From IMG/VR virus record IMGVR_UViG_3300044712_000411, positions 1 through 26,268 of that record: a DNA stretch of 26,268 nt; one strand, written 5' to 3'. Position 1 is the first letter of the stretch, and each line of letters begins with the position of its first letter. This DNA is from a virus. Position numbers and translations under genes: made by a program. Shown one piece after another: positions 1-25,807 of the stretch. The notes below the pieces were generated by a model that saw nothing but the letters and a program-made list of their open reading frames with translations, did not search any database and was not told the DNA's origin.

Positions 1-11
1 ATAAGTCACCA

Positions 12-194
12 ATGCTTAATTTTGACAAGGTGCACCCAAATGTAAAAGCTTATTTCATAGCACATGGTTACCTCGAAGCCCTCAAAGGCGAAGAGGTGAA
101 GGAATTATTGGATTTAATAAAAAACTTTGTCGATATAAGTAAGGATGACAAATTTTATTGTCTATTTTGTTATTGCAAACCGGATCACTCGTAG
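12..194 (+). CDS. Small hypothetical protein, possibly 5'-truncated
   Basis: A 60-residue reading frame of unknown function, predicted mostly helical, with Cys residues near the C terminus (CLFCYC). The ATG at 12 has no visible Shine-Dalgarno sequence, and the frame stays open back to the window edge, so the gene may start outside the window. It runs in the same direction as everything downstream. I do not recognise a family. Confidence 0.45.
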   Translation: MLNFDKVHPNVKAYFIAHGYLEALKGEEVKELLDLIKNFVDISKDDKFYCLFCYCKPDHS

Positions 195-261
195 AAATGT
201 GTTTGTTATTTAGCAAATAAAACTCTTGAAAAATGGGATTCCAAATGAAACTTGAAGATAT

Positions 262-290
262 TTGGCTCAAAGAGAACGGGAAAATATAAA
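262..290 (+). promoter_or_regulatory. Sigma70-like promoter
   Basis: A TTGGCT (-35, 262-267) and a TATAAA (-10, 285-290) are separated by exactly 17 bp. This lies in the longest gene-free stretch at the left end of the window (195-337). The predicted start site, about 7 bases after the -10, is near 297, where the three 10-bp repeats begin. The likely target is the operon at 338 and 629. The call rests on two 4/6 to 5/6 hexamers with ideal spacing, so it is suggestive only. Confidence 0.4.
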
Positions 291-296
291 TGATTT

Positions 297-326
297 TAGA
301 CATTGGTAGACATTTTTAGACATTTA
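297..326 (+). repeat. Three tandem 10-bp repeats (TAGACATTnn)
   Basis: The octamer TAGACATT occurs three times, at 297, 307 and 317, each followed by two variable bases. The period is exactly 10 bp, about one helical turn, so every copy faces the same side of the DNA. The array covers the predicted +1 to +30 of the promoter at 262-290 and ends 11 bases before the ATG at 338. A 10-bp period is not a multiple of three, so this is not an amino-acid repeat. It may be an operator or a site for an RNA-binding regulator. Confidence 0.6.
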
Positions 327-337
327 AAGAAATAAAA

Positions 338-589
338 ATGCGTGGCAGAAGAGAGAATAAATTGAAAAAAGTTAAATTATTGCGTAATGATAAATTATTT
401 AGATTTGAATGGTGGTCTATTAATTCCCATCATGCCTGCATAAGAATTGGATGGTTAGATTACACGAATAAAGGCGATTTGGGAGATAAGTCAGCTGTAT
501 CGTATGCAATGGAGACATTTAACTATGAAAGAGTTGAAATTTTAGAAGTTGATATGTTGCATTATTGTTTTGGTTTAAATTTGAACTAA
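338..589 (+). CDS. Small hypothetical protein
   Basis: An 83-residue protein with a basic N terminus (MRGRRENKLKKVK) followed by a region rich in aromatic residues (EWWSINSHHACIRIGWLDY). No known fold is recognisable. The start at 338 is preceded only by a weak purine stretch (AAAGAAA) and sits directly behind the 10-bp repeats, so expression may be controlled from there. It is followed 39 bases later by the gene at 629 and probably shares its transcript. Confidence 0.5.
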   Translation: MRGRRENKLKKVKLLRNDKLFRFEWWSINSHHACIRIGWLDYTNKGDLGDKSAVSYAMETFNYERVEILEVDMLHYCFGLNLN

Positions 590-628
590 CAAGGAATACT
601 TGCCAGTTGGATTAAGGGAGTGTTTAGA

Positions 629-943
629 ATGACAAAAGAAGAATTCAAAGCAAAGTTTAAGGTGGGGGATATTATTAAAAAAGATGGAAGTGAAAGCACT
701 TACAAAATCACGGCTATCAGTGAACAACATGTTGTTCTTATTCGGAATGGTTATGAGAATCTTTGTGATTTTGACGCCTATGATTGGGAAAAAGTAGAGC
801 CAAAGAAGAAGCCGAGCGAGGAGATAAGGGACAGAATGATAAGCCTCGGATATGATGGAAATGATCTCATGGATGTGAAAAGTTTAGCGCTTGGGTTCAA
901 TTTAATCTTAGAAAAGCTTGACGAGAACTGGGAGAAAAAATGA
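629..943 (+). CDS. Small hypothetical protein
   Basis: A 104-residue protein. The ATG at 629 is preferred over an in-frame GTG at 620 because AAGGGAG at 614-620 is spaced 8 bases from the ATG and overlaps the GTG. The first ~50 residues (FKVGDIIKKDGSESTYKITA) resemble a small beta-barrel of the type that starts 'F.vGD.i'. The C-terminal half is charged and helical. The function is unknown. Its stop overlaps a possible 14-codon ORF at 940. Confidence 0.6.
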   Translation: MTKEEFKAKFKVGDIIKKDGSESTYKITAISEQHVVLIRNGYENLCDFDAYDWEKVEPKKKPSEEIRDRMISLGYDGNDLMDVKSLALGFNLILEKLDENWEKK

Positions 944-984
944 AAAAACGCATGGCATACCCGATATGGGGCTTGCAGTCATAA
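940..984 (+). CDS. Possible 14-codon microprotein
   Basis: An ATG at 940 overlaps the TGA of the preceding gene (ATGA) and has GGGAG at 930-934, five bases upstream. It encodes MKKRMAYPIWGLQS. The overlap and ribosome binding site are those of a coupled gene, but the length gives no coding statistics. It may be a remnant of a longer gene or a leader peptide. Confidence 0.2.
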   Translation: MKKRMAYPIWGLQS

Positions 985-1015
985 AAAATAACTATATCGT
1001 AGTACAGTTAATCAT

Positions 1016-1201
1016 ATGCCCTATCAATCCCTAAAACCAACAGAATGCATCCTGTGCAATCATTCAATCTCTCAAAAGACCGGGAGATGCGAAAACTGCT
1101 GTGTCTATTACCACGGAATTGTTGCGAAGCAAAAGAAAAAGAAGGTTCGGAAATACTATCGGGACGGTCAATTGAAAAAACTACGGGAGATGATTATTTG
1201 A
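1016..1201 (+). CDS. Small Cys-rich, putative zinc-ribbon protein
   Basis: A 61-residue protein with two Cys-x2-Cys knuckles (CILC near residue 11 and CENCC near residue 25), separated by about 10 residues. This is the spacing of a small zinc ribbon. The tail is very basic (KQKKKKVRKYYRDGQLKK), which fits nucleic-acid binding. No Shine-Dalgarno precedes the ATG. A weak -10-like TACAGT at 1003-1008 lies 7 bases upstream, so a leaderless transcript is possible but weaker here than for the genes at 1222 and 1961. The exact function is unknown. Confidence 0.5.
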   Translation: MPYQSLKPTECILCNHSISQKTGRCENCCVYYHGIVAKQKKKKVRKYYRDGQLKKLREMII

Positions 1202-1206
1202 ATGTT

Positions 1207-1215
1207 TGCTATAAA
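1207..1215 (+). promoter_or_regulatory. Extended -10 promoter element (TGCTATAAA)
   Basis: TG at 1207-1208, one base, then TATAAA at 1210-1215 form a near-ideal extended -10 element. No good -35 is present at the normal distance, which extended -10 promoters can do without. Transcription would start near 1222, at the A of the ATG of the next gene. That gene has no Shine-Dalgarno. Confidence 0.4.
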
Positions 1216-1221
1216 TAGAAA

Positions 1222-1608
1222 ATGTTTATAGTCAAATGGCTGGCGAATGCAATTGAAAAGGAAAAGTCAAACGACGTTTTTACTTTAGACCCAATACTTA
1301 CATTCCATGATTTGCAGGCACTCTTAAAATTACAAACACGAAAATATCATCACGAAACCTGTTTTGGTCACGTCGAATCTATTTTAAAGCGCAAAACTTC
1401 CGATGGGCATGAATATGGAATTTCTATTTATGTCGAACCTTCTGGAAATGTATTGCGTTGGGATAAATCTGTAATATCTGGAATTAAATGGTGGGAAACT
1501 GTTTTTTTATCTCAACCACGATTGATGGGCTATGTGGAAGCGGGGTGGAAAATTTACGAAATAAAAGACACCCTTCCAGAAAACCCTATTGATGTGTGGG
1601 ATAACTAA
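1222..1608 (+). CDS. Hypothetical protein
   Basis: A 128-residue protein of unknown function. It has a helical N terminus, then a beta-rich part with a repeated aromatic pattern (YGISIYVEPSGN, KWWETVFL, WKIYEI). It lacks a signal peptide or membrane segment. The ATG sits six bases after an extended -10 element and has no Shine-Dalgarno, so the mRNA may be leaderless. The next gene begins 16 bases after the stop. Confidence 0.6.
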   Translation: MFIVKWLANAIEKEKSNDVFTLDPILTFHDLQALLKLQTRKYHHETCFGHVESILKRKTSDGHEYGISIYVEPSGNVLRWDKSVISGIKWWETVFLSQPRLMGYVEAGWKIYEIKDTLPENPIDVWDN

Positions 1609-1624
1609 TTTAAAAAGGACGAAT

Positions 1625-1927
1625 ATGAATAGAAATATAAATTTACCAGGAGTAGTTTTTTCATTTATAGCGGGTCCAATAAGAACAGAATTATATGGAG
1701 AACGAACGATATTAACACACTTGCAAAAATATTCACATTTTGGATTTATGATGACATGGCCATTTTGCTTTCATTTCTGGGTGTTTTTAAAATTACAAGA
1801 AAAAGAGAATGGACAATGGAAACCCGGAACAGAGAAGGGAATATATTTCAGAACACCCGGATGGCGTTGGGACGCTGATTTAGGAATGAAAACAACAAGG
1901 GGATATTTCGGGACCCATTGGGATTAA
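1625..1927 (+). CDS. Conserved aromatic-rich phage protein
   Basis: A 100-residue protein. The ATG at 1625 is chosen because AAAAAGGA at 1612-1619 is spaced 5 bases away; in-frame ATGs at 1589 and 1592 lie inside the previous gene and lack this site. It is extremely rich in Trp, Phe, Tyr and His (MMTWPFCFHFWVFLKLQ; FRTPGWRWD). From memory, near-identical short proteins recur beside the following gene in environmental tailed-phage genomes without an assigned function. No catalytic motif is visible. Confidence 0.65.
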   Translation: MNRNINLPGVVFSFIAGPIRTELYGERTILTHLQKYSHFGFMMTWPFCFHFWVFLKLQEKENGQWKPGTEKGIYFRTPGWRWDADLGMKTTRGYFGTHWD

Positions 1928-1943
1928 ATAGGGAGTACATATT

Positions 1944-1964
1944 ATGCTACAATCCCGCCCATGA
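1944..1964 (+). promoter_or_regulatory. Extended -10 promoter and/or 6-codon coupled leader ORF
   Basis: Two readings overlap here. TG at 1945-1946, one base, then TACAAT at 1948-1953 make an extended -10 whose start site would be about 1960, at the ATG at 1961. Alternatively, GGGAG at 1931-1935 with an 8-base gap serves an ATG at 1944. That ORF encodes MLQSRP and ends in a TGA overlapping the ATG at 1961, which would couple translation to the next gene. The bases alone cannot separate the two. Confidence 0.35.
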
Positions 1965-2353
1965 AATATCCTTTTTTAATTTTCGGACGCAACGTAACAT
2001 CATGGGAAAATGAAAAATCATACGTTTTTGTCGCTTGCTATGCTGAAAAATGGATAACGCCATTTTCAAGAAAAAAAAATCTTCCAGCAACAGAAATGAA
2101 CCCTTTCAATCAAGAATATTCTAACCCCTTATTGATTGAGTCCCGGGGAGATTACACCCCGACATATTCACAACCTTTTACGAAAACAAGTTTCGGCATA
2201 TATTTCCCATTTTTTATTTTTCTCGAAATTCGGTTCGGTGGGCGTGACAAGAACAATGGAAAATATAATCACGACTGGTCTTTTAAATTAGGTTTTAAAA
2301 AAGATTTATATAACGGGAAGCATCACTTCATTGTTGACTTTATTAGGAGATAA
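1961..2353 (+). CDS. Conserved hypothetical phage protein
   Basis: A 130-residue, aromatic-rich, soluble-looking protein (GRNVTSWENEKSYVFVACY; FGIYFPFFIFLEIRFGG). Like its upstream neighbour, it looks like a member of an unassigned family that, from memory, recurs in this type of phage as an adjacent pair. There is no Shine-Dalgarno at the normal distance. Initiation is either leaderless from the extended -10 at 1945-1953 or coupled to the 6-codon ORF at 1944. Confidence 0.65.
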   Translation: MKYPFLIFGRNVTSWENEKSYVFVACYAEKWITPFSRKKNLPATEMNPFNQEYSNPLLIESRGDYTPTYSQPFTKTSFGIYFPFFIFLEIRFGGRDKNNGKYNHDWSFKLGFKKDLYNGKHHFIVDFIRR

Positions 2354-2356
2354 AAA

Positions 2357-2626
2357 TTGAAACCAAGCGAATGGATTATTAAAAGAGCAACGGATAAGTG
2401 CAAGAAAGAATTTGATGAGTCTCCCGAATCTAAGAGAATGCCAACTTTGCTGGAACACATAGACGCACGCCTGGGGTGGCGCGTCCCAGAAGCAACCTTG
2501 GAATATTTAGACCAATATGCCGAATATATGGGAAATTTGAAAGCGCAAATGGATTTAATATTAAAAAAATTAGATAGCAACACTTACGCAATGGGAGAAA
2601 ATGAAAATGTCTCGACCACGAAATAA
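2357..2626 (+). CDS. Small hypothetical protein (TTG start)
   Basis: An 89-residue, mostly helical, charged protein (KPSEWIIKRATDKCKKEFDE; LKAQMDLILKKLDSN), probably with a short coiled coil at its C terminus. It begins with TTG at 2357, supported by AGGAGA at 2345-2350 seven bases upstream. The stop of the previous gene lies between. It overlaps the next gene by about 20 bases. Function unknown. Confidence 0.6.
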   Translation: MKPSEWIIKRATDKCKKEFDESPESKRMPTLLEHIDARLGWRVPEATLEYLDQYAEYMGNLKAQMDLILKKLDSNTYAMGENENVSTTK

Positions 2627-2807
2627 TTTCAATCCAATGATTACAGCCTTCGCCATCGTTAAATCTCCTAATGGTCAAAACCTCTGGCAAACATACACCT
2701 ACAAAATACAAGGCGAAGTTGTGTTCAGCATTGAAAAATCAGAGGAAGATTTAAGGGAAATTCACACCGCAAAAATTCAAGATAAAATATCGGGGTTTAT
2801 AGAATGA
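2607..2807 (+). CDS. Small hypothetical protein
   Basis: A protein of about 66 residues. ATGs at 2601 and 2607 are both possible. GGGAG at 2593-2597 is 9 bases from 2607 but only 3 from 2601, so 2607 (MSRPRNNF) is preferred. The sequence looks like one small beta domain (ITAFAIVKSPNGQNLWQTY) followed by an acidic helix. It overlaps the gene before it, and its TGA overlaps the ATG at 2804, so the three genes are translationally linked. Function unknown. Confidence 0.55.
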   Translation: MSRPRNNFNPMITAFAIVKSPNGQNLWQTYTYKIQGEVVFSIEKSEEDLREIHTAKIQDKISGFIE

Positions 2808-3082
2808 TTCAGTCGACTATTCTTTCAATATTGTGGTCTTTCGTATCATTGGTCGGAATTGTAGCTATTTACGATATCCTCAAGAGGGTTTGCGATATCT
2901 ATTTAAAATCTAAAGCTCAAATGAACAGTCAACTTGAGATTTTGAATAGCAAAAATACTAAAAATGATGATTTTGAACAATTTTCGTCTGAAATAAATTC
3001 AATAAAACAGGAACTAAAATCGTTAAAAATAGCGATTAGTATGAAAAATATGATGGGAAATAAGAAGGAATTGGGGTCTTAG
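2804..3082 (+). CDS. Small membrane-anchored coiled-coil protein
   Basis: A 92-residue protein with one N-terminal membrane segment (residues ~5-24) followed by a charged helical region rich in heptad-like Leu, Ile and Lys, predicted coiled coil. It starts at an ATGA overlap with the previous gene. Small proteins of this shape occur in many phages, often as spanin-like or membrane accessory proteins. Its position next to the terminase genes rather than the lysis genes makes a lysis role uncertain. Confidence 0.6.
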   Translation: MIQSTILSILWSFVSLVGIVAIYDILKRVCDIYLKSKAQMNSQLEILNSKNTKNDDFEQFSSEINSIKQELKSLKIAISMKNMMGNKKELGS

Positions 3083-3442
3083 TTGGCGCATGGAATTTTT
3101 AGAAAAAGGAAATCGAAAGGTTCTCCAAAAACGGGAGGGCGTAAACCCGGATCTAAAAATAGGTTTACTTTTACCCTTGGCGCTATTGTTACTATTTGCG
3201 AAAAATTTGGGTATGACCCACTTGAGCGTTTAATCAAGCTTTCGGAAGATCCCGCATTAGAACTAAAAGAACAAGCGAGGATTCACATTGCCTTATTGCC
3301 TTACGTTCGGGGCAAGCCTAAAGAAATAGAGGTGGAGGATAAAACAAACTCACCCCTAATAGATATCCCTGCCGAAAAATTAATAGAACTTCTCCCCACA
3401 TCAAATGACAATGGACAAACCGTCTTTAAAATTGACGAGTAA
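3083..3442 (+). CDS. Putative small terminase subunit (TTG start)
   Basis: A 119-residue protein immediately upstream of, and overlapping, the large terminase. The N terminus carries a basic, AT-hook-like stretch (TGGRKPGSKNR) followed by helices (YDPLERLIKLSEDPALELK; ARIHIALLPYVRGKPK). This pattern is common to short proteins encoded just before TerL in podoviruses. The expected role is recognition of the viral packaging site and loading of the large subunit. The start is TTG at 3083, directly after the previous stop, with GGGG at 3073-3076 as a possible ribosome site. The call rests on position and pattern, since no diagnostic catalytic motif exists for this family. Confidence 0.6.
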   Translation: MAHGIFRKRKSKGSPKTGGRKPGSKNRFTFTLGAIVTICEKFGYDPLERLIKLSEDPALELKEQARIHIALLPYVRGKPKEIEVEDKTNSPLIDIPAEKLIELLPTSNDNGQTVFKIDE

Positions 3443-4844
3443 GGACATAATCGACACCTTATGGAGAAAAGGTGTTCTCCATTGGAAATTGAAACCAATT
3501 CAGAAGGTTATGCACGAAAAAGAGCGGACTAGCACCGCTTTAATATGGGTTGAGAATTGTTCCCGCCGTTTGGGTAAATCATATCGTTTGGCAATTAAGG
3601 CGCTTGAAGTTGGATTGACGCAACGTGAAGCGGTTATCCCATTTGCCGCACCTACCCTTAAAATGATTAGAGATATCACTCTGCCGATATTCAGGGAAAT
3701 ATGCCGAGATGCCCCAAGCGATATAAAACCAATTTGGAGACAATCGGAGGGGAAATTTCTATTTCCATCAACAAAGTCAGAAATTGTTTTGGCTGGTGTG
3801 AATAGCGGAAACGCCGAGAAACTTAGGGGACGTAAAGCCACGATTGCAATTGTCGATGAAGCCGGTTTCATTGAAAATCTTGATTATTTGGTTCAAGATG
3901 TTTTGATGCCGCAATTATTGACGACAAATGGCAAAATTCTTATGGCCTCATCTCCCAGTAGAACCCCCGCCCATGCTTTCCGTGATTATTGTATGAGAGC
4001 GCAAAGGGAAAACGTCTATTCTGAGTATGACATCTATCAGGCTGGATACACCCCTGAGAAAATAGAGAAATTCAAAAAAGAAGCAGGCGGAGAGAATTCG
4101 ACGACTTGGAAACGCGAATATTTGTGTCAATTTGTTGTAGATGCTGATTATCACATTATCCCTGAATGGCGTGATGCGTTTGCGGTAGAAATAAAGAGAC
4201 ATGAATATTTTAAATATTATTACCGCTATGTTTTCATGGATATGGGGGTCAAGGATAAGACCGTCATTTTATTTGCTTACTATGATTTTTTAAACGCGCG
4301 CTTGGTCATTGAGGGGGAAATAGTGATGCAAGGGCCAGAAATGACCACCGAGAAGATTGCTGCCAAGATCAAAGAGAAAGAAGCAACATTGTGGCCTGAT
4401 TTAAGGGTACATCGTCGCATTGCAGATAATAATAATCCTTTGATGCTTTTAGACTTGGGATCTCTTCATGATATCCATTTCAGCCCGACACAAAAAACCG
4501 GAAAGACGGAACGTACAACAATCATTGAGGCCATGGTAAATGAATTGCGGATTAATGTCGGATCGGGGAAAGTGATTGTCAGCCCGAATTGCCCTGAAAC
4601 GATTGGATGTTTAAAGTTCGGTATTTGGAATAAGAATCGCACGCAATTTGAAAGGGTTAAAGAATACGGCCATTTTGATGCACTTGCCGCCCTCATCTAC
4701 GGGAACCGCGCCATTGATAGGGTAACAAACCCTATACCGATGAATCTTGGAATATCAACCCACACGCATTTAATAATGCCAGAACCTAAAATAAATGGGC
4801 CACTAGCGGAAAATATTAAAAAGATGTTTAATTTAAAGAGATGA
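3405..4844 (+). CDS. terL: Terminase large subunit
   Basis: A 479-residue DNA-packaging motor. The ATPase domain shows a Walker A (RRLGKS, residues ~54-59), a Walker B ending in the catalytic acid (IAIVDE, ~147-152) and a coupling motif (ASSPS, ~181-185). The C-terminal RNase H-like nuclease has its conserved acids in FMDMG (D~279), IADNN and GHFDA. The protein pumps DNA into the prohead at the portal vertex and cuts concatemers. It overlaps the small terminase gene by 38 bases. ATGs at 3405 and 3411 are both possible because no clear Shine-Dalgarno is present. Its stop overlaps the portal start (ATGA). Confidence 0.95.
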   Translation: MTMDKPSLKLTSKDIIDTLWRKGVLHWKLKPIQKVMHEKERTSTALIWVENCSRRLGKSYRLAIKALEVGLTQREAVIPFAAPTLKMIRDITLPIFREICRDAPSDIKPIWRQSEGKFLFPSTKSEIVLAGVNSGNAEKLRGRKATIAIVDEAGFIENLDYLVQDVLMPQLLTTNGKILMASSPSRTPAHAFRDYCMRAQRENVYSEYDIYQAGYTPEKIEKFKKEAGGENSTTWKREYLCQFVVDADYHIIPEWRDAFAVEIKRHEYFKYYYRYVFMDMGVKDKTVILFAYYDFLNARLVIEGEIVMQGPEMTTEKIAAKIKEKEATLWPDLRVHRRIADNNNPLMLLDLGSLHDIHFSPTQKTGKTERTTIIEAMVNELRINVGSGKVIVSPNCPETIGCLKFGIWNKNRTQFERVKEYGHFDALAALIYGNRAIDRVTNPIPMNLGISTHTHLIMPEPKINGPLAENIKKMFNLKR

Positions 4845-23799: not shown

Positions 23800-25370
23800 T
23801 GACAGATCAGGAAGAACTTGAATTCTTAACCCTTAAACGCAAACGGGCAATGGCGATGCAAACGCCGGAGCCTATGGTAGAACCCGCTTCAAAATTAAAG
23901 AGTTTGGCTTTAGGTGGCGTACAAGGTGGAACTTTTGGTTTTGCAGATGAAGCGGAAGGCGCAATACGCGCTTTGGGTGATGAAACGTATAAGGAAGGCC
24001 GTGATGCCGCAAGAAAACGCTATGAAGAAGCGGAGGCGGCCAACCCTAAAACATATATGGCAGGACAATTGGGAGGAGCTATTCTACCCGTTATTGCTGC
24101 TGAAATGGGGAGTGCAGGAACAGCCACGCCCGCCGTTGGTGCTAGATTGGCTTCAATGCTTGCCCCAAAGACTTTACAGGGAGTTATGGCATTGGGAGCC
24201 GTGCAAGGATTGGGAGAATCAAAGAATGAATCGGCACCTGCTCAAGTTTTAGATGCCGCAAAAGGGGCTGGGTTATATGGGGCTTTTCATATGGGCGGGA
24301 AAGCGGTGTCACCAGTTATTGATCCAATTGCCAATAAATTGGCGGCCTTGGGTGAACTCGTAAGCGGAAAATTTAAGAATGTGGCCATGGATACAGGAAA
24401 AAGAGCTGTGGGATTTACAAAAAGGCTTCTTAATACTCCGCTTAAAGAAAGGCAGGCAAATGAAGCGGTTAGCATGGCTTTAGAAAAAGGAATAATAACC
24501 CCTCTCTCAAGCACGAAAGCAATGCAAGAAGCGGCAGAATCCGTTTCCAAGGAAAGCGGCCAAGCCATGGGAAAATTTTTACAAGATCAATCGAATACGG
24601 GGCTTATGTTCGACCCATTAAAAGCCATTGAAGATTTAAACAAATTGCGGCCAAAAGGTTTAAATATTGGAGAGAATCAGAAAATAAACACGCTCATAGA
24701 TAATGCCTTGGAAACGGTAAAATCAAGAGCAAAACAAAATCATGATCCAAATAGTTTGGCCTCTGGAATTCCATCAAGCAAGTTTATCGACTGGGAAGGC
24801 GCACGAGAATTAAAAAGTTTGCTTCAGAAAATGGCAAATTATGACACCACGATGAGTGGGGCCGCCAATGAAGTAAAAAAGAAAATAGCAGGATCTATGC
24901 GGAATTCATTTATGGGGCAGCTTGAAGAATCTTCATTGAAAGGTGGCGGGGAAAAAGGTTTTGATGCTTTTGCAAAAAATGTCAAAGACTACGGATCAGC
25001 TGAAACGTTACAAGATGCATTACAAAATAGATTGTCTTCTGAAAGTGGCAACGCAACGATTGGATTACGGGATGCGGCATTAGGTGGAGCAGAACTGGCA
25101 AACACTGGGAATTTTGGTAAAGCGGCCATGGTTGCCGGAGGTTTAAAACTTGGCAGAAAATATGGGAATCAAACTATTTCTTCCGGTGCGAACGCTATAG
25201 CGAGAAGAATTGAAACAAACCCCGCCGTTTACGGTAAATACGCAAATGATTTTATGACATTGGCAAAACGAGGCGGTTCGGCATTGGCCGCGCACCATTT
25301 TATTTTGTCGCAAAGTGATCCTGAATATCGGAAATTGGCTGAGAAATTGGATAAGGACGAGAACAATTGA
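23799..25370 (+). CDS. Putative ejection protein with glycine-rich hydrophobic segments
   Basis: A 523-residue protein. After a polar N terminus it has an Ala/Gly-rich, moderately hydrophobic region (~35-150) containing GVQGGTFGFADEAEGAI, MAGQLGGAILPVIAAEMGSA and LQGVMALGAVQGLG. Helical regions with many Lys, Glu and Gln follow. Such 'GG..GFADE..GA' segments are typical of phage ejection proteins. No lytic transglycosylase motif was found. Its stop overlaps the TTG start of the NlpC/P60 gene, so the two are translationally coupled. Confidence 0.66.
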   Translation: MTDQEELEFLTLKRKRAMAMQTPEPMVEPASKLKSLALGGVQGGTFGFADEAEGAIRALGDETYKEGRDAARKRYEEAEAANPKTYMAGQLGGAILPVIAAEMGSAGTATPAVGARLASMLAPKTLQGVMALGAVQGLGESKNESAPAQVLDAAKGAGLYGAFHMGGKAVSPVIDPIANKLAALGELVSGKFKNVAMDTGKRAVGFTKRLLNTPLKERQANEAVSMALEKGIITPLSSTKAMQEAAESVSKESGQAMGKFLQDQSNTGLMFDPLKAIEDLNKLRPKGLNIGENQKINTLIDNALETVKSRAKQNHDPNSLASGIPSSKFIDWEGARELKSLLQKMANYDTTMSGAANEVKKKIAGSMRNSFMGQLEESSLKGGGEKGFDAFAKNVKDYGSAETLQDALQNRLSSESGNATIGLRDAALGGAELANTGNFGKAAMVAGGLKLGRKYGNQTISSGANAIARRIETNPAVYGKYANDFMTLAKRGGSALAAHHFILSQSDPEYRKLAEKLDKDENN

Positions 25371-25807
25371 AACATTCAGAAATTCCGTGGTCAAAAATGA
25401 TCGAGTTCGGTAAAAAGTGTGTTGGGAAACCTTATGTTTATGGGGTTGAAGTTAATATTCCTACGTTCTTAAAAGATCCAAACCCCGACAAAATTGTGGC
25501 CTTAGATTGTTCTGAATTGGTTGAAGTTCTTTACGCTTTGGTTGGAATTAATGTCCCTGACGGGTCATATAATCAGGCCAAAATGTGCCGAAGAGTTCCA
25601 TTTGAATCTGTTTTGATTGGGGACATGGGTTTCAAATGGTACCCGGACACACAAGTAATTCACCACGTTGGGTTATATTTAGGGAATAAAGAGGTTTTAG
25701 AGGCCAAGGGGAAAGCGTTTGGTGTTGTAGTAACACCTTATGATGACTATGTTAAATCTTCGCATTTTGCATATTGGGGACGTTTAAAAACAATAGAAGA
25801 TGCTTGA
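25367..25807 (+). CDS. NlpC/P60-family peptidoglycan endopeptidase (TTG start)
   Basis: A 146-residue protein with the catalytic pattern of NlpC/P60 cysteine peptidases: ALDCSELV (C48) and IHHVGLYLG (H100), plus the EAKGKAFGVV segment downstream (E112 as a possible third residue). These enzymes cleave peptide stems of peptidoglycan, typically at the gamma-D-Glu-meso-diaminopimelate bond. The start is TTG at 25367, with AAGGACG upstream, overlapping the previous TGA. It could be the endolysin, followed by small membrane proteins, or a virion-borne enzyme, because it is coupled to the last ejection gene. No signal peptide. Confidence 0.88.
   Translation: MKHSEIPWSKMIEFGKKCVGKPYVYGVEVNIPTFLKDPNPDKIVALDCSELVEVLYALVGINVPDGSYNQAKMCRRVPFESVLIGDMGFKWYPDTQVIHHVGLYLGNKEVLEAKGKAFGVVVTPYDDYVKSSHFAYWGRLKTIEDA

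Follow-up and report, generated by a model that had tools for sequence, protein, structure and literature searches.

Three identical octamers stand one helical turn apart in a short gap between two small reading frames of a virus, and the question raised by this locus is whether such an array is meant to be read and, if so, by what kind of molecule. The window, meaning the whole stretch of DNA analyzed, is a virus record of 26,268 bases with matches of terminase, portal, head, internal-virion, and tail type and with an NlpC/P60 domain protein (positions 25367–25807) near its right end. An exact-match search for the octamer TAGACATT located three copies within a gap of 143 bp (Table 1) and no further copies on either strand of the window. 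The preliminary description had placed three repeats in exact 10-bp steps at 297, 307, and 317, and these positions were confirmed. The octamer is the same in all three copies, and the spacers are unlike. When spacing was disregarded, at least three copies occurred in 4 of 100 shuffles. Counting any octamer except those built from one or two letters only, no three-copy array at periods of 8–24 arose in 300 first-order Markov windows, compared to the one observed. The improbable feature of the array is its exact 10-bp spacing, not its copy number.

Table 1. Features in and around the octamer array of the window.
Feature	Position	Strand	Basis
Upstream frame, 60 aa; stop 102 bp ahead of the array	12..194	+	ORF list
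Promoter-like pair TTGGCT-17 bp-TATAAA, unsupported as a promoter	262..290	+	Sequence letters; absent from the promoter-scan list
Complete tandem array, period 10, 3.2 copies	294..325	+	Tandem Repeats Finder score 50
Site 1, TAGACATT	297..304	+	Exact match
Site 2, TAGACATT, 10 bp after site 1, spacer GG	307..314	+	Exact match
Site 3, TAGACATT, 10 bp after site 2, spacer TT	317..324	+	Exact match
Downstream frame, 83 aa, without PHROG or Pfam matches; ribosome-binding site better at the in-frame TTG at 362	338..589	+	ORF list, family scans, anti-SD energies

Within the collections searched, the virus itself is an orphan. The frames at 338, 620, 1016, and 1222 matched no PHROG or Pfam family, no homologue of the 83-aa protein was found in these collections, and a blastn search of positions 1–4000 against phages gave no match. 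Three relatives of the terminase were identified, with 31% identity over residues 139–257. No gene was common to all of the array-bearing groups compared, and the window shared none with them. Direct searches with the arrays, which are limited by low-complexity filtering, returned 10 weak matches (E of 1 or worse) for positions 285–337 against phages, none for the array of locus L020 against phages, and none for that of L030 against plasmids. The array was also undescribed in the listed titles and abstract openings of open-access papers on the word, on iterons, and on direct repeats.

The surprise lies in the recurrence of the word rather than in the single array; to our knowledge, regulatory sites are rarely recognizable across unrelated viruses. 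A search for three copies of TAGACATT at 10 bp retrieved 20 other viral contigs, which were sorted into 10 flank families using blastn on 1.5-kb flanks, some families remaining distant relatives (groups A and D and groups B and J share proteins). The same search retrieved 1 contig for one permuted control word and 7 for another, and 3 in total for eight words of equal G+C with their mixtures, searched as one pattern. Extending the search to TAGACATT with three near variants and all mixtures produced 22 contigs, of which 20 were already known and 2 were added. The control words were few, and the one found in 7 contigs, TTACAGAT, includes real-looking arrays; other words can thus form short 10-bp arrays as well, and the size of the TAGACATT enrichment is uncertain. 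Arrays of TTACAGAT at L023:12049, L025:3059, and L026:14096 lie just downstream of primase-helicase-like genes, which we take to be of the VirE or D5 type. A second 10-bp array, with four copies of a word close to CCCAGTATCA, was noted at L020:9508–9552, where it adjoins a six-copy TAGACATT array. With gaps of 0–30 bases allowed, a wider scan of the viral collection found at least 120 stretches with three octamers. The word recurs in the same arrangement in dozens of unlike viral contexts, with 42 helically spaced flank families (about forty) among the matches listed.

The spacing of the copies follows the helical turn. Among the matches listed for 73 new loci (L059–L131), gaps of 11 bp were seen 59 times, 12 bp 26 times, 22 and 27 bp 14 times each, 21 bp 11 times, 20 bp seven times, 9 bp six times, and 10 bp five times; gaps of 13, 14, and 17 bp never occurred. 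A count per flank family is fairer because one large family supplies many of the 12-bp cases, and one representative per family was used for this count and for later analyses. Among the matches listed for 62 families, the gap of 11 bp was the most widespread (23 families), followed by 10 bp (17 families, a number inflated by the first search, which was restricted to 10 bp), 12 bp (9 families), and 21 and 22 bp (6 families each), with 27 bp seen in 2 families and 13 bp in a single one. The per-family spacings among the matches listed thus peak at 10–12 and 20–22 bp, and the 27-bp cases include repeats within reading frames. For other words in 975 kb of L059–L168, 83 three-copy regions were found, in which 134 of 166 gaps were multiples of 3, as in coding repeats, with 11 and 22 bp seen once each and 10 bp five times. 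A T occupied position −1 of the octamer in 77% of 37 representative contexts (neighboring copies counted), and the flanks favor T. Inverted copies within 60 bp were found for 6 of 45 arrays, compared to 0.2 expected, and for the window array there was none. At L109:1799–1867, four octamers spaced by 20, 20, and 21 bp are located directly 3′ of an integrase gene.

These features bear on the possibility that the array is a functionless tandem repeat, generated by replication slippage and tolerated in an intergenic gap. Several arrays do have perfect units, and in an uncontrolled count 11 of the 45 had one edge no more than 5 bases from the stop codon of a frame of at least 60 aa, as might be seen in neutral DNA. 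However, the spacers vary while the octamer is fixed, in the window and elsewhere, a difference that is partly built in because the loci were picked by exact octamers. Copies two turns apart have unlike DNA between them, and TAGACATT recurs more than the control words do. On balance, we consider slippage unlikely.

Because the word recurs in the same arrangement in dozens of unlike viral contexts, the array is probably a docking site for protein. For the fuller proposal, that a sequence-specific DNA-binding protein occupies it cooperatively, we regard the chances as evenly balanced. Same-face cooperative binding had been suggested in the preliminary description from the spacing; that part gains support, by inference, from the recurrence of the octamer at about one or two helical turns, and the promoter and transcript attached to it were not supported, as described below. 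If a protein binds here, three identical octamers one turn (10 bp) apart would place three protomers on the same face of the DNA, bound side by side and head to tail, one per turn. The octamer of the window would then be a variant of a site, approximating TTTAGACATT, that recurs in viruses, mostly with 3–6 copies at 10–12 or 20–22 bp. Occupancy of the 143-bp gap would most simply lower or time the expression of the gene starting at 338 (or 362).

Examination of the gene neighborhoods showed that the placement of the arrays is mixed, ahead of genes, after them, or between convergent genes, with both orientations relative to the neighbor represented, a misfit with one regulatory role. For the placement analysis and for that of the −7 box, 18 of the 62 families were dropped as not helically spaced or as having all gaps in multiples of 3. 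Family matches were sought for 141 of the 159 listed neighboring frames, and no family matched more than five of these proteins. The matches were led by metallophosphoesterase (5), Erf-like (3), and DnaC-like loader (2), and the single matches within the 25 commonest families included chaperonin, protease, portal, thymidylate synthase, and arm-binding. At L061:5380–5560 and in its family (31 loci), the array lies between two divergent genes, presumably Hsp20-like and Clp-protease-like, and an inverted octamer copy is present. Bacteroidetes-type −7 boxes beside the arrays were also considered and dropped, with 4 of 44 and 2 of 44 compared to 1.9 and 2.0 expected; L061 and L085 do carry such boxes.

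Replication-origin iterons would account for the array as repeats bound by a viral initiator, its place ahead of the late genes marking the edge of a replication module. In keeping with an origin, none of the 20 records has its 10-bp-spaced copies in more than one cluster, though some have lone octamers elsewhere (L072, for its part, has two clusters), and the Erf-like, DnaC-like, and metallophosphoesterase matches put some arrays by replication or recombination genes. The arrays of L015 and L020 lie just downstream of genes that we take to be initiator-like and loader-like, a small gene intervening in L015, and the array of G008 (6284) is close to the maximum of cumulative GC skew (6000). However, other arrays adjoin lysis, structural, or chaperone genes, the array lies at neither the minimum nor the maximum of the skew in the other six of the seven records, and no replication gene was recognized in two scans covering 9 and 7 window proteins, the window being possibly a fragment. 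Iterons are accordingly a rather unlikely reading of this locus.

A role of the repeats as RNA had been proposed from a −35/−10 pair predicting a transcription start at about 297. The two hexamers and their 17-bp spacing are literally present at 262–290, but they do not stand out as a promoter. A promoter scan of positions 1–1500 listed 7 promoter-like sites, compared to a shuffle mean of 5.6, and omitted this pair because its −10 hexamer is without the final T. Pairs matching 9 of 12 positions numbered 60 on the plus strand of the window, within the 53–75 of ten simulations, and the sigma-70-type hexamers at 262–290 are not above chance. The start at about 297 rests on this pair, a prediction rather than an observation, and is unsupported. 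The ATG said to follow 11 bases past the array does so when counted from the claimed end at 326, and 13 bases separate the third octamer from the ATG at 338. This proximity favors repeats of a 5′ leader that bind a translational regulator. However, the leader RNA fold was nothing unusual relative to shuffles (z of 0.48), and the sole Rfam match in positions 1–1500, at 101–158, had an E of 0.72 and fell under the gathering score, so that neither test points to a structured RNA. The anti-SD energy is −0.9 at the ATG at 338, which has next to no ribosome-binding site, and −5.0 at the in-frame TTG at 362; it is −4.0 or lower at 23 of 36 listed starts (alternatives counted), but the starts of the terminase and portal frames are no stronger than the ATG at 338. 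In other records, the array is found 3′ of genes, between convergent genes, or on the opposite strand, the word thus having either orientation relative to the neighbor gene, and spacing by the turn of DNA would be of no obvious use in RNA. The translational-regulator site is weakened by these results, and we judge it very unlikely. A gene start on the opposite strand, where AATGTCTAA reads ATG-TCT-AA, was considered separately and rejected, as most antisense frames from the arrays are short; the reading holds in few contexts (for example, L078, L105, and L009), and the antisense frame from the window array, of 73 aa, is without support.

The repeats could also serve a temperate phage as attachment-site arms or as excisionase sites. 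Direct repeats one turn apart occur at such sites (PMC7498355), and the L109 array follows an integrase gene; however, this is highly improbable for the window. The tyrosine integrase family Phage_integrase was found in only 2 of the 48 array-bearing records, and the excisionase-like domain HTH_17 matched 8 of 48 at an E of 0.001 or better, one of them over the cut-off of the model and 7 below it, many of these records being fragments. Neither domain was found in the window, which may itself be a fragment. Finally, a three-frame stop signal, in which 10- or 11-bp spacing shifts the TAG at the start of each unit through the frames, is scarcely credible. A TAG of the array terminates an upstream frame of at least 60 aa in L006, L162, and L168, but 42 of 45 arrays have no such stop, the frame-keeping spacings of 12 and 21 bp are also common among the matches listed, and the five bases after TAG would have no need to be fixed.

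Returning to the binding-site reading, bacterial genomes offer a clue to the type of protein involved. In the bacterial and archaeal collection, the exact 10-bp array is limited to 3 stretches, once per genome, and a single host regulon was not supported on this basis; the L030 genome has one further octamer pair near its array. An array follows a HATPase_c_4-type gene in 3 of the 5 bacterial genomes in which an array was seen, namely Idiomarina (L029), a Desulfobacterales genome (L030), and L171, with TAGACATT repeats at 10 or 11 bp. The array starts 5 bases past the stop of this gene in Idiomarina and 2 bases past it in the Desulfobacterales genome, and the two proteins share 57% identity. 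The HATPase_c_4 assignment is a Pfam match; we take the bacterial gene to carry AlbA_2 as well and its C-terminus to be a winged helix. Among 369 genomes of the Idiomarina class, 3 have the array (2–4-bp spacers) and 15 the HATPase_c_4-type gene, and the two coincide in two genomes. One of these is Idiomarina, and in the other the stop codon TAG of the gene is part of the first unit of an 11-bp array. The third array genome of the class (L186, 12-bp spacing) and Tepidiphilus (L031) showed no HATPase_c_4-type gene in the stretch examined.

The homologues of this gene were tabulated for 26 of 29 loci, with three partial or distant HATPase_c_4 homologues left out. Some carry repeats of other words (TAAACTTTAGA, TAAGAGAGTTT, TAAAAGAGTTT, TGAGAGAGATT, and TAAATGCAGAG), each of which begins with the stop codon itself and has a period of 11 bp, and the remaining homologues have decayed repeats or none downstream. 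Under a strict rule, arrays were found at 9 of 241 ORF ends in the 29 HATPase_c_4 loci, all nine at the stop of the HATPase_c_4 gene, and at 1 of 1419 ORF ends in the viral loci L059–L168. Repeats of 10–11 bp were seen at or a few bases after the stop in L169, L171, L180, L181, and L189–L193, the word varying among homologues. In L030 (758–905), decayed copies (TAGGCATT, CAGGCATT, and CAGACATT) run for more than 100 bases past the three exact octamers. Neither AlbA_2 nor HATPase_c_4 is encoded in any of the 48 array-bearing viral records, the window included and many records being fragments, and the window array is accordingly not a repeat at the stop of such a gene. The family therefore points to a type of protein and is not the binder in these records as far as they extend.

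A bolder and distinctly doubtful extension is that TTTAGACATT at helical spacing is an address shared by many unrelated viruses for one winged-helix class, encoded by virus or host, with the bacterial HATPase_c_4-type proteins as relatives of the binder and the viruses borrowing or decoying a host regulator of defense genes. The presence of one octamer with helical spacing in about forty viral flank families would offer a way to a common viral or host DNA-binding protein through a single pull-down. The linked bacterial family, with its own repeat words, could be used to find out which domain recognizes the site.

Among known systems, iterons of the phage P4 type are decamer direct repeats about one turn apart that are bound by an initiator. 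The window array resembles them in its short direct repeats at about one turn; however, its word differs, and no initiator was recognized among the window proteins scanned. The repeats at the stop codons of HATPase_c_4-type genes share the octamer itself, spaced by 10 or 11 bp, in L029, L030, and L171, but the domain is absent from the 48 viral records and the bacterial relatives carry other words.

Two systems in the literature are similar in arrangement. The Apl operators of coliphage 186 are described as direct repeats 10–11 bp apart that are bound cooperatively, presumably by one monomer per operator, and that lie at attP and between pR and pL, with Apl an outlier among recombination directionality factors (RDFs) (PMC7498355). 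As in the window, these are short direct repeats in phage DNA at about one helical turn (10 bp in the window, 10–12 and 20–22 bp elsewhere). However, the operators are of 6 bp and not strictly conserved according to that source (PMC7498355), in contrast to the identical 8-bp units of the window. A site of the RDF type would be expected with an integrase, an att site, and a small excisionase-like wHTH protein from the same phage, and neither Phage_integrase nor HTH_17, the one Pfam model by which RDFs were sought, was found in the window, which may be a fragment. BldC, a MerR-like protein of Streptomyces, forms head-to-tail multimers on a variable number of direct repeats (PMC5859096, PMC11963761), and variable copy number is likewise seen in the TAGACATT arrays. 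It differs in being a bacterial regulator with the unit AATTXXXX(C) (PMC5859096) and 9-bp repeats at whiI (PMC11963761), and the window gave no HTH_17 match. With such proteins not found in the window, membership is that of a candidate only, but by analogy, the array may well work as the Apl- and BldC-type sites do.
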